DNA of 42,415 nt. It comes from an uncultured Desulfuromonadales bacterium (GTDB lineage: Bacteria; Desulfobacterota; Desulfuromonadia; Desulfuromonadales; Trichloromonadaceae). The notes under the pieces are model-generated. The model saw only the letters and a list, made by a program, of their open reading frames with translations, ran no database searches and was not told the origin of the DNA. The stretch lies in NCBI GenBank assembly GCA_945787285.1, contig CALZIC010000008.1, forward strand, positions 1 through 42,415, written 5' to 3'. Both the position numbers and the translations under genes were made by a program. How positions within the stretch are numbered: position 1 is the first letter of the stretch; each line of letters opens with the position of its first letter. Below are positions 18,330 to 21,782 of this stretch, piece by piece.

Positions 18330-19217
18330 ATGACGACGAAACCCGCGTACGATTCAGAATTCCAGCACAGGGACCCCGGGGTGGACCGTGGAGTCGACCC
18401 CGTCCGCACGGGTTTTGAGGCGATGCTCTCAAAAGCCCGACGCGAAGGGGTCGCGCGCCAGGAGAACCTGCCCTTTCTCCTCGAGCCGTCGTCTCCGGCC
18501 AAGGCGGCCGTGGTGCTGGTGCATGGGTTTACCGCCTCGCCATGGGAGATGCGCAAATTCGGAGAGGCGCTGGCAAAAGCGGGCTACCTGGCCGTGGGGG
18601 TGCGGTTGCCAGGACACGGCACCACCGCCAGGGACCTGTCCGAGCGCCGATATGAAGAATGGCTTGAAGAAGTCGATGCCACCTGCCGCCTGCTCCAGGG
18701 ACAAGGGCTCAAGGTCTTCGGAGCAGGCATGAGCACCGGCTCACTGCTCCTGCTGGCCTGCGCCGAGCGCCAGTTCGTCGACGGACTGGTCCTGATGTCG
18801 CCGTTTTTAAAACTGAGGCACCGGCTGGCTCCGGCGGTCGGCATCCTGCGTTTCGTAATGCGTTATCAGCACCGCACCCTGCCGGCCGATCAGGCTCACT
18901 TCTACTATGCGCAAAGGCCCCTGAACGGCGTCTATCAGCTGTACCGGCTGATCCGTCATGTCCGCTCGCATCTGTCCCAGGTCACTACCCCGTCACTGAT
19001 CCTCAGCGCCAGTGGGGACCAGACAATTCATGCGGCCAGCGCCAAAGACCTGTTTCAGCAGCTGGGGAGCTTTCGCAAGGAGTACCACCTGTTCGGACCG
19101 GAAGTCCCCCACGTGCTGACCACCGACGAGAACCCGCGCTGGCAGGAAGCCTTCGACCTCACCCTCGGTTTTTTCCGCGATCTGGAGGGGGAGACAGACC
19201 GGCCTGAAGCCGGTTGA
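18330..19217 (+). CDS. Alpha/beta hydrolase (carboxylesterase/lysophospholipase-like)
   Basis: A 295-residue serine hydrolase without a signal peptide. The oxyanion region VHGFTASPWEM, the LPGHG turn, nucleophile S135 in GMSTG, acid D230 in SASGDQT and base H261 in VPHVL form a complete catalytic triad as in Est30-type carboxylesterases. It should hydrolyse esters such as monoglycerides or short acyl esters. A ribosome binding site AAGAAGG lies before the ATG. Its last 225 bp are overlapped on the opposite strand by an open extension of coaE. The triad residues D230 and H261 lie in that overlap, so the hydrolase frame is the one under selection there. Confidence 0.87.
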   Translation: MTTKPAYDSEFQHRDPGVDRGVDPVRTGFEAMLSKARREGVARQENLPFLLEPSSPAKAAVVLVHGFTASPWEMRKFGEALAKAGYLAVGVRLPGHGTTARDLSERRYEEWLEEVDATCRLLQGQGLKVFGAGMSTGSLLLLACAERQFVDGLVLMSPFLKLRHRLAPAVGILRFVMRYQHRTLPADQAHFYYAQRPLNGVYQLYRLIRHVRSHLSQVTTPSLILSASGDQTIHAASAKDLFQQLGSFRKEYHLFGPEVPHVLTTDENPRWQEAFDLTLGFFRDLEGETDRPEAG

Positions 19218-19748
19218 AGAGTTCTCGATCACATAGTCGGCGCGGCGCACCTTTTCCGCCAGGGGCATCTGGGCCGCGATTCGGGCCCTGGCGGCCTGCT
19301 CGTCGAGACCGTCCCGCTCCTGCAGGCGCTTGAGCTGCTGGCCCTCGTCAACGTCCACTACCAGCACGGCATCCACCCGGCTTTCAGCGCCCGCCTCAAA
19401 GAGGAGCGGCGCCTCGTAAACGACCAGCGAAGCCGACCCCTGGGCCAGCTCGTTCAAACGCCGCACGGCCAGATCGGCGATGGCCGGGTGGGTTATCCCG
19501 TTCAGGTCGGCACGCGCCTGGGGATCGGCAAAGATCAGGTCGCCCAGGGCCTGGCGGTCGAGATGGCCGTCCGCCAGCAGAATGCCCCGGCCGAAGCGCT
19601 CAACCAGCCGGTCGAGAACAGCAGAGCCCGGAGCCACCACGTCCCGGGCCAGCTGATCGGCGCTGACCAAAGGCGCCCCCAGTTCGCTGAACATTCGGGC
19701 GACCGTGCTTTTTCCCGAGGCAATGCCGCCGGTAATACCAAGAATCAT
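18993..19748 (-). CDS. coaE: Dephospho-CoA kinase with aberrant C-terminal extension
   Basis: The last enzyme of CoA synthesis, phosphorylating dephospho-CoA. Start MILGITGGIASGKST contains the P-loop (GGIASGKST, 7-15). The CoA-binding region QAARARIAAQMP and the final conserved DYVIENS (171-177) are all present. I chose ATG 19748 because it matches family starts; the frame stays open to 19793. Normal CoaE ends ~20 residues after DYVIEN. Here the frame instead enters the antisense of the hydrolase gene at residue ~177 and continues for ~74 residues of non-family sequence to a stop at 18993. The usual C-terminal helix is missing. The enzyme may still work, since the motifs are intact, but the 3' end looks rearranged. 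Confidence 0.85.
   Translation of the reverse strand: MILGITGGIASGKSTVARMFSELGAPLVSADQLARDVVAPGSAVLDRLVERFGRGILLADGHLDRQALGDLIFADPQARADLNGITHPAIADLAVRRLNELAQGSASLVVYEAPLLFEAGAESRVDAVLVVDVDEGQQLKRLQERDGLDEQAARARIAAQMPLAEKVRRADYVIENSSTGFRPVCLPLQIAEKTEGEVEGFLPARVLVGGQHVGDFRSEQVVLLAKAPQLLKQVFGAGRMNCLVPTGAEDQ
19198..19214. other. Short hairpin at the hydrolase/coaE junction
   Basis: ACCGGC, 5-nt loop, GCCGGT: a 6-bp stem directly before the hydrolase stop and at the point where CoaE similarity ends. It could be a weak bidirectional transcription stop or a scar; no U tract follows. Confidence 0.35.
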
Positions 19749-19776: not shown

Positions 19777-19841
19777 TGTAGGAGCGGTTTCAACCGCGAT
19801 GGTGTTGCCGACCCCTGATCGCGAATGAATTCGCTCCTACA
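19777..19841. repeat. REPIN-like element: two inverted REP sequences
   Basis: Two 24-nt sequences (19777-19800 and 19818-19841) face each other across a 17-nt spacer. Both begin TGTAGGAGCG and end GCGAT when read inward. Each also contains its own small palindrome: GCGGTT-TC-AACCGC on the left and GCGAAT-GA-ATTCGC on the right. This GTAGGAGCG head plus internal stem is the architecture of REP doublets known in Pseudomonas and relatives. It lies between coaE (minus) and the acyl-CoA synthetase gene (plus). Confidence 0.85.
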
Positions 19842-19946: not shown

Positions 19947-21782
19947 ATGAATACAACCCTTCCCCGCATGGTTTTCGACCGGGCCCGCCACTTCAATGAT
20001 CGGACGGCCCTGCGCTACAAGGACCAGGGCAGCTACAAAGATATCTCCTGGTCGCAGATGGCCGACAAGGTGCAGCTCTTCGCCAGGGGATTGCTGGCGC
20101 TGGGCGTCCGGCGCGGCGACCGTATCGGCATCATGGCTCCCAACTCCCCCGAATGGGTCTATGCCGATCTGGGTGCAATGACCTGCGGGGCGGTATCGGT
20201 CCCTGTCTATCATACCGAAGGGTTTTCCTCGATCCGCCACATCGTCGAAGACTCCCAATGCCGCATCCTTTTTGTCTGTTCGCCGCTGGTGGCGCGCAAG
20301 CTGGCGGCGAAGCGCTCCGACACCCCGCACCTCGAGCACATCGTCCTGCTCCACCCGGGGGCGGAATCCGAGGGGATCACCGGGTACGAGGCCTTCACCC
20401 GGGCCGCCGAACAGCTGCGGGACGCGGACCTGGCCCCCCACCTCGAAAAAGGCGCGGAATCCGACCTGGCGACCCTCGTCTACACCTCGGGCACAACAGG
20501 CCCCCCCAAGGGGGTGATGCTGACCCACGGCAACATCCTGTCCAACATCGACGCCTGCGCCCCCCTCTTCGACATTACCGGCAAAGACCAGTGTCTCTCT
20601 TTTCTGCCCCTCTCCCACGTATTCGAGCGCATGGCCGGCTACTACCTGATGCAGCACTGCGGTGCGGTGATCGCCTATGCCGAAGACCTCGACTCGGTTC
20701 CGGCCAACCTGGTCGAAGTCCGCCCGACCATTGTGATCAGCGTCCCCCGTCTTTACGAAAAAATGTACGCCCGGGTGATGGAGCGGGTACTGGCCGGCCC
20801 CTGGATCCGCAAGCAGGTCTTTTTCGGCGCCCTTAAATTCTGCCGGGCCTTTTCCGTTGACCATGCCCCCTCGGGCCTCCTGGAAGAGGCACAACAAAAG
20901 GTCGTCGGCCTGGTTCAGAAAACGATCTTTGCCCCGCTGCGAGAGCGCCTGGGTGGGAACCTGCGTTTTTTCGTCTCCGGCGGCGCCCCCCTGAGCCGGG
21001 AGATCGCCGAGTTCTTCCTGGCGGCCGGTGTACCGATCTACGAAGGGTACGGCCTGACCGAGACCTCGCCGGTGGTCGCCGTCAACACCCCTGCGGCGCT
21101 GCGACCCGGAACGGTGGGCCGGCCGGTGCCGGGCACCGAGGTGCGCATCGCCGAGGACGGTGAAATCGTCGTTTGCGGCCCCGGGGTTTTCCAAGGGTAC
21201 TGGAACCGGCCGCAGCAAACGGCCGAGGTGCTCGAAGACGGTTGGTTCAAGACCGGTGACATCGGCGAAATTGACGCGGGCGGCTTTCTGGTCATCACCG
21301 ACCGCAAAAAAGACCTCATCGTGACCGCCAGCGGCGAGAACATCGCCCCCCAGGTCATCGAAAACCATCTCAAGACCAACAAGTATGTCGCCAACGCCAT
21401 GGTCTACGGCGACCGGAAACCGTTTTTGACCGCGCTGCTCGTTCCAAACCTGGAAACCCTCGAGCAGTACGCCAGCCTGCAGAAGATCGACTTCCTGACC
21501 CCCTGCGACCTGGTCAGCCACCCGAAAATTCTCGAACTGATGCGCGAGGAAGTCAACCGCCTGCAGGCCCAGCTCCCGTCATTCCAGCGCATCAAGCGCT
21601 TTACCCTGCTCTCCCAGGACTTCTCCACAAAAGAACTCACTCCCACCTTGAAACTGAAACGCAAACTGGTGACCCGCCATTTCAACGAGATCCTGGAGGG
21701 AATGTACATCGCCCAGGATCACGGCATCCATGACAACGCATTCTGCATTGTCGAAGATCTCGACGAGAAGGAGAAGGACTGA
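19947..21782 (+). CDS. Long-chain acyl-CoA synthetase (AMP-forming, FadD15-like)
   Basis: A 611-residue ANL-superfamily enzyme that activates fatty acids to acyl-CoA via acyl-AMP. The AMP-binding P-loop is intact (YTSGTTGPPKGVM), as are the GYGLTETSP motif, the GWFKTGDIG hinge region and the DRKKDLIVTASGENIAP motif. The long insert and overall size match long-chain (FadD/FAA) rather than acetyl-CoA synthetases. Near the end LTPTLKLKRK carries the C-terminal catalytic Lys region. No transmembrane segment; it is probably membrane-peripheral. The start is preceded by GGGAGG. It is followed 2 bp later by the isochorismatase-type gene. Confidence 0.93.
   Translation: MNTTLPRMVFDRARHFNDRTALRYKDQGSYKDISWSQMADKVQLFARGLLALGVRRGDRIGIMAPNSPEWVYADLGAMTCGAVSVPVYHTEGFSSIRHIVEDSQCRILFVCSPLVARKLAAKRSDTPHLEHIVLLHPGAESEGITGYEAFTRAAEQLRDADLAPHLEKGAESDLATLVYTSGTTGPPKGVMLTHGNILSNIDACAPLFDITGKDQCLSFLPLSHVFERMAGYYLMQHCGAVIAYAEDLDSVPANLVEVRPTIVISVPRLYEKMYARVMERVLAGPWIRKQVFFGALKFCRAFSVDHAPSGLLEEAQQKVVGLVQKTIFAPLRERLGGNLRFFVSGGAPLSREIAEFFLAAGVPIYEGYGLTETSPVVAVNTPAALRPGTVGRPVPGTEVRIAEDGEIVVCGPGVFQGYWNRPQQTAEVLEDGWFKTGDIGEIDAGGFLVITDRKKDLIVTASGENIAPQVIENHLKTNKYVANAMVYGDRKPFLTALLVPNLETLEQYASLQKIDFLTPCDLVSHPKILELMREEVNRLQAQLPSFQRIKRFTLLSQDFSTKELTPTLKLKRKLVTRHFNEILEGMYIAQDHGIHDNAFCIVEDLDEKEKD

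Follow-up and report, generated by a model that had tools for sequence, protein, structure and literature searches.

An inverted pair of GTAG-1 REPs in a Desulfuromonadales genome, and the RAYTs that accompany such REPs in its relatives

The GTAG-1 REPs and REPINs of Pseudomonas are among the closest described relatives of the element reported here. By the published definition, a GTAG-1 REP has a GTAG foot, extra bases of the form GW, a stem of 5 bp or longer, and a three-base tail (PMC3733652). One example is the class PF18 REP of the P. fluorescens complex, GTAGGAGCGAGCyyGCTCGCGA (PMC3686654). The Pseudomonas elements share with ours the GTRG foot, the GA before a short stem, the GAT or GAA tail, the arrangement in inverted doublets, and the many dispersed copies. 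Ours differs in its TTYA loop, in the two different stems of its arms, in its Desulfuromonadales host, and in coming from a genome in which no cognate RAYT was found. A GA between foot and palindrome has been noted as characteristic of the RAYTs of Pseudomonas and Xanthomonas (PMC2817692), and RAYTs of subclass 2.5 are reported to be confined largely to xanthomonads and pseudomonads (PMC6006769).

Marinomonas sp. MWYL1 carries the REPtron Mb, with a TnpA-REP of group 3. Here again one finds GTAG, two bases, stems of 5 bp, and a 4-nt loop, TTTA there and TTYA in our element (PMC8266576). In Marinomonas, however, the REPs are described as clustered near the gene (PMC8266576), whereas ours are dispersed and no gene was seen. 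Thauera shows that the Pseudomonas-like kind of RAYT and GTAG-1 REPs with 5-bp stems also occur outside the gammaproteobacteria (PMC2817692, PMC3733652), and one of its loci (L230) carries the 22-nt pattern, GTRGGAGCGNNTTNNNNCGCGA, of the window (the whole stretch of 42,415 nucleotides that was analyzed). Thauera is, of course, a betaproteobacterium, its RAYT is present, and for it a transfer has been claimed (PMC2817692, PMC3733652).

A further relative is the REPtron of Geothermobacter hydrogeniphilus HR-1, which belongs to the same order and has REPs of the window pattern. It also has a complete 2.5-type RAYT with REPINs on both sides, and its second arm carries GGCTTCAGCC in place of GGTTTYAACC. 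GTAG repeats of Geobacter uraniireducens (family 11) are already in print (PMC3733652). A literature search on REPs in Desulfuromonas, in Geobacter with a transposase, or in Deltaproteobacteria, outside of which lay most subscription journals, found nothing relevant. The feature extends a known system; it does not reveal a new one.

An inverted REP pair between coaE and a ligase gene

An earlier note on this DNA had proposed that two facing 24-nt REP-like arms, each with an internal palindrome, form a REPIN here. An inverted-repeat search of the window found the arms exactly at the positions in Table 1, 83% complementary and 17 nt apart. Each arm begins with a T, the GTAG foot, and GA, then forms a 5-bp stem around the loop TTCA, and ends in the tail GAT; the stem is GCGAA/TTCGC in arm 2, unlike the GCGGT/ACCGC of arm 1. 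Folded singly, the arms give a 5-bp stem and a 4-nt loop, beginning two bases behind GTAG (z -3.0 and -2.4). These are the parts of a GTAG-1 REP (GTRG foot, GA, 5-bp stem, unpaired GAT tail), and two such REPs facing each other across a short spacer make a REPIN. The 10-mer head, TGTAGGAGCG, occurs seven times in the window at up to one mismatch against 2.15 expected, a number reached in none of 100 shuffles.

Table 1. Positions in the window of the REPIN, its parts, and the flanking genes
Feature	Position	Strand	Remarks
Presumed coaE (dephospho-CoA kinase) frame, left neighbour	18993..19748	-	Conserved beside the ligase
REP arm 1, TGTAGGAGCGGTTTCAACCGCGAT	19777..19800	+	Inverted-repeat finding, folding; 22-nt core recurs across the genome
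REPIN spacer	19801..19817	.	17 nt between the 24-nt arms (19 nt between the 22-nt cores)
REP arm 2, TGTAGGAGCGAATTCATTCGCGAT	19818..19841	-	Faces arm 1; inverted-repeat finding, folding
Complete REPIN, heterodimer of two REP subtypes	19777..19841	.	65 nt
AMP-forming acyl-CoA ligase (long-chain type), right neighbour	19947..21782	+	

The element is intergenic and lies between a divergent pair of genes. It stands 28 nt upstream of the start codon (19748) of the frame that we take to be coaE, and it is upstream of the ligase as well, 105 nt from that start codon (19947). The junction was compared across 39 genomes of the order, the host's own included. The ligase is present in 23 of the others, and coaE is divergently upstream of it in 22 of these 23. 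None of the 22 coaE-ligase gaps holds a REP at three or fewer mismatches. The gap measures 198 nt here, or 133 nt once the REPIN is subtracted, while the other 22 have a median of 120 nt (range 44-292). Because the REP is absent from the same junction in these 22 relatives, the REPIN between coaE and the ligase is, at the available resolution, a lineage-specific insertion. Alignment of intergenic DNA across genera was tried for the base-level flanks and the target site, and that DNA is too diverged. The insertion beside coaE is probably neutral; an effect on the expression of coaE or the ligase is possible.

A hairpin at such a place might, of course, be a static regulatory structure (a bidirectional terminator, an attenuator, or an mRNA stabilizer) that serves coaE or the ligase and does not move. 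The 65-mer does fold as one long hairpin, with z about -7 on either strand, and its closeness to coaE would suit such a role. Yet the hairpin is absent from the junction of the 22 relatives, the same sequence is present at many unrelated loci, and scans gave zero terminator-like sites and zero matches to Rfam families. A static hairpin is highly unlikely. Very probably, the 65-nt feature is a REPIN, two inverted GTAG-1 REPs that belong to a dispersed, non-autonomous mobile population.

The coaE frame has its own peculiarities. Over 18993-19217 it shares its sequence with the 3' end of an esterase-like ORF in the opposite orientation (18330-19217). Further, most other coaE proteins resemble it only as far as about residue 179 of 251, and the native end of coaE may therefore have been altered.

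The REP population of the host genome

The window's own genome (G000) is a draft in 517 contigs, 91.7% complete, with an estimated contamination of 5.8%; this one genome stands for its genus in all comparisons. Counting REP-headed 24-mers in it had been suggested as a check. The bare head is uninformative alone, occurring 23 times against 18 for its reversed control. The 22-nt pattern, in contrast, is decisive, with 36 exact copies against none for the reversed control, and 49 against 4 at up to two mismatches. Thus additional copies do exist, and the inverted doublet of the window is one member of a population dispersed across the genome, at a moderate copy number.

Pairing was analyzed for 43 of the 49 places at up to two mismatches (six two-mismatch places were omitted and one was kept). 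These 43 REPs are spread over 19 contigs. This bears on the suspicion, which the 5.8% estimate might raise, that the REP-bearing contigs are contamination from another bacterium that entered the bin. A distribution over 19 contigs argues against this. So do the coaE and ligase of the window contig, which are arranged as in genomes of the same family and order and are 69% and 56% identical, respectively, to those of G001, a genome of the same family. Contamination is hardly credible as the source of the REPs.

The 43 copies form 15 inward pairs, with 13-24 nt between their 22-nt cores. All 15 combine two different stems, where shuffling predicts 8.7 (p 0.0005), and 13 of them are GAA+GGT, the stem combination of the window REPIN. 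The spacers of 11 of the 15 pairs were compared. They fall into a long kind (seven) and a short kind (four), and within each kind they resemble one another more closely than any of 2000 shuffles produced; the spacer of the window REPIN belongs to the long kind. Because stems are consistently paired and spacers are related, the REP pair spreads as a unit.

Of the 36 exact REPs, 32 lay in loci that were retrieved, and in these the tails and flanking bases were scored. The tail is GAT in 27 of the 32. A T immediately precedes the GTRG foot in 31, and CT does so in 17, against 5.7% expected. By the crude proxy of ORFs of 150 aa or more, the REPs are mainly extragenic, 15 of 32 lying in such ORFs as against 81% of random 22-mers.

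In the proposed mechanism, REPINs move as single strands with the help of a subclass-2.5 RAYT (RAYT group 3), a TnpA-REP nuclease of the HUH tyrosine type. The enzyme would read the GTAG foot as a guide, together with the hairpin, and cut at the neighbouring CT. CT is the published cleavage dinucleotide of a RAYT acting on a single-stranded hairpin with a GTAG guide (PMC8266576), and the RAYT homology to PDB 4er8, a TnpA-REP, has an E value of 1.8e-12. By analogy, cutting and joining at the window REPIN would presumably follow the same chemistry.

RAYTs in the host and in its order

The presence of a REPIN had led the earlier note to predict a RAYT elsewhere in the same genome. This prediction was not borne out. 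Profile and protein searches found no subclass-2.5 RAYT in G000, although at 91.7% completeness in 517 contigs its absence is unproven; the cognate RAYT that a REPtron has in its genome was thus not found. A search for the Y1_Tnp family, which had been proposed as the way to look for a RAYT, is too broad for this purpose, being positive in 36 of 39 genomes.

G000 has two RAYT-like matches, on contigs C426 and C398, both of other kinds. That on C398 is partial. The long gene on C426 reaches 70 bits against NF047646, whose cut-off is 80, and its motifs (NHLH, FQ, YIHLNP) are of the subclass-2.1 kind, not 2.5. No REP lies on its 4.3-kb contig, which ends inside the gene and leaves the 3' flank outside the assembly.

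The order itself does contain RAYTs flanked by REPs of this kind. A profile of Pseudomonas-type RAYTs, run on 136 genomes of the order, found complete genes of the subclass-2.5 type in five (G019, G026, G039, G062, and G068). A protein search of four other genomes of the same family added, in G001, a fragment lying at the edge of its contig (L133, G001:C331). REPs of the window kind adjoin all six. The motifs of these RAYTs are DH[LF]H, WQ, and Y[LM]VxNP; those published for subclass 2.5 are DH[LF]H, WQ, and one like YI[VI]ANP (PMC6006769). The RAYTs of G039, G019, and G062 sit among REPs of the window pattern, while those of G026 and G068 sit among variants of their own, related to that pattern, as one would predict for a RAYT and a REP that evolve in step. 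G039 is Geothermobacter hydrogeniphilus; REPINs lie on both sides of its RAYT (contig G039:C64, NZ_PPFX01000068.1), whose stop codon falls within the downstream REP.

REPINs follow the G001 fragment, and their arms are GTAGGAGCGGTTTCAACCGCGA and GTRGGAGCGAATTTATTCGCGA. The first is identical to the core of window arm 1; the second has the stem of arm 2 with one loop base different. The tail, however, is GAA in all 31 retrieved G001 REPs as against mostly GAT in G000. Because the tails differ, the G001 gene would be a relative of the cognate RAYT and not necessarily the cognate itself. Nor does the heterodimer pattern extend to G001, since only 10 of its 20 inward pairs are heterodimers against 13.7 expected (100 of 110 places, among the matches listed, in a genome with 7% estimated contamination). 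In the assembly, the reading frame of the fragment is broken near its 3' end, a sign, perhaps, of gene decay or of misassembly.

Other RAYT-like genes were considered as REP carriers. Those at L098-L100 (G026, G001, and G060), presumably group-2-like by their motifs, have no window-pattern REP within 1.5 kb at three or fewer mismatches, save one single-mismatch site in L098. G073, a 100% complete genome in two contigs, has 147 exact window-pattern REPs; a profile search found no subclass-2.5 RAYT in it, although it has many long RAYT-like genes. The retrieved stretches around these genes, covering 20 of 26 matches, have a good REP in 2 of 13, a number informally judged to be near chance.

G073 thus resembles G000, where a full core was found in no RAYT-like gene but that of C426. 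From these one might argue that a different subclass of RAYT-like proteins supplies the mobilizer, for instance through the long, subclass-2.1-like C426 gene. Against this stand the C426 contig with its zero REPs, the near-chance count in G073, and PMC6006769, where subclass 2.1 is listed without REPs. This alternative is quite unlikely. Most likely, the RAYT that spread the population is a relative of the G001 gene, and is either lost or in the unassembled part of the genome.

A further idea is that REPIN populations of the Desulfuromonadales grow or persist with no subclass-2.5 RAYT in the genome, as the 36 REPs here and the 147 in G073 might suggest. This is unlikely, if less so than the involvement of another subclass. 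If true, another Y1 enzyme would be mobilizing them in trans, or they would depend on a RAYT that is present only at times.

Some RAYT loci show unusual arrangements. In L103 (G019:C33), L102 (G062:C5), and L179 (WSYB01000011.1, a Geobacteraceae MAG), the stretch of the RAYT gene that separates the HUH motif from the tyrosine motif contains in-frame REPs. These are 3 of 89 RAYT rows, all from one supported clade. A structure prediction for the G019 protein shows the insert as a loop of low confidence (pLDDT about 41-62), next to a core that mostly exceeds 90. REP insertions within the RAYT gene have been called unique to subclass 2.4 (PMC6006769); these three genes, in contrast, are of the 2.5 type. 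Behind the G026 RAYT (L130, about 1230-1370, G026:C9), a unit of REP end plus spacer stands in several tandem copies.

Breadth and origin of the system

Breadth was sampled in the best 80 of 561 RAYT relatives in GTDB genomes, a sample that leans to close matches. A strict REP (GTRG, GA, stem, GA) lies within 400 bp of the RAYT in 64 of the 80, at 29 of 41 loci in Pseudomonadaceae and at 35 of 39 elsewhere. The density of strict REPs is 4.6 per kb in the RAYT flanks against 0.3 per kb more than 700 bp away. The window's 22-nt pattern itself occurs at nine of these best 80 loci: Geothermobacter, Thauera, two Pseudomonas, Desulfobulbaceae, Methylobacter, an unnamed gammaproteobacterium, Geobacteraceae, and Sideroxydans.

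The likeness to Pseudomonas that had been remarked upon is therefore only partly apt. The architecture of GTAG, GA, stem, and GAW is indeed tied to Pseudomonas-type RAYTs, but the label is too narrow for a feature found at 35 of 39 loci outside the Pseudomonadaceae. Because strict REPs flank RAYTs well outside that family, the Pseudomonas-like head is the mark of a RAYT-REP class common to Proteobacteria and Desulfobacterota.

Did the system reach this lineage by transfer? One proposal is that a RAYT, since lost, entered together with these REPs from Pseudomonas or a different gammaproteobacterium. The 22-nt pattern is patchy, present in 15 of 98 order genomes (98 of the 136 having been searched) and in 11 of 395 phylum genomes, the host's own included in each. 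The RAYT is scattered too, found by profile in 5 of 136 order genomes, with the G001 fragment in addition. A transfer into Thauera, with Pseudomonas-like REPs, offers a precedent (PMC2817692).

The RAYT tree has 87 rows and leans to close matches, the scan of relatives having covered the best 80 of 561 (row L158 is a shortened translation); it places Desulfobacterota RAYTs at three positions. The branches between these, however, including the deep ones, are weakly supported, and a single clade of the seven Desulfobacterota rows is not rejected (p-AU 0.31). Further, any transfer looks old, because identity between the G068 RAYT and the best 80 of 561 relatives reaches no more than 62% (range 48-62%). 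The horizontal spread that the earlier note raised is thus plausible from the patchy distribution, and the tree does not single it out. An old transfer, or vertical descent with heavy loss, would each be compatible with the tree, and the arrival of these REPs from a gammaproteobacterium is a tentative proposal, somewhat doubtful on present evidence.

The distribution of subclass-2.5 RAYTs and REPs is patchy here and takes in Desulfuromonadales as well as a Desulfobulbaceae bin. This gives tests of REPIN/RAYT co-evolution a wider range of hosts. It also offers a complete genome, G073, for the question of whether a REPIN population can outlast its enzyme.
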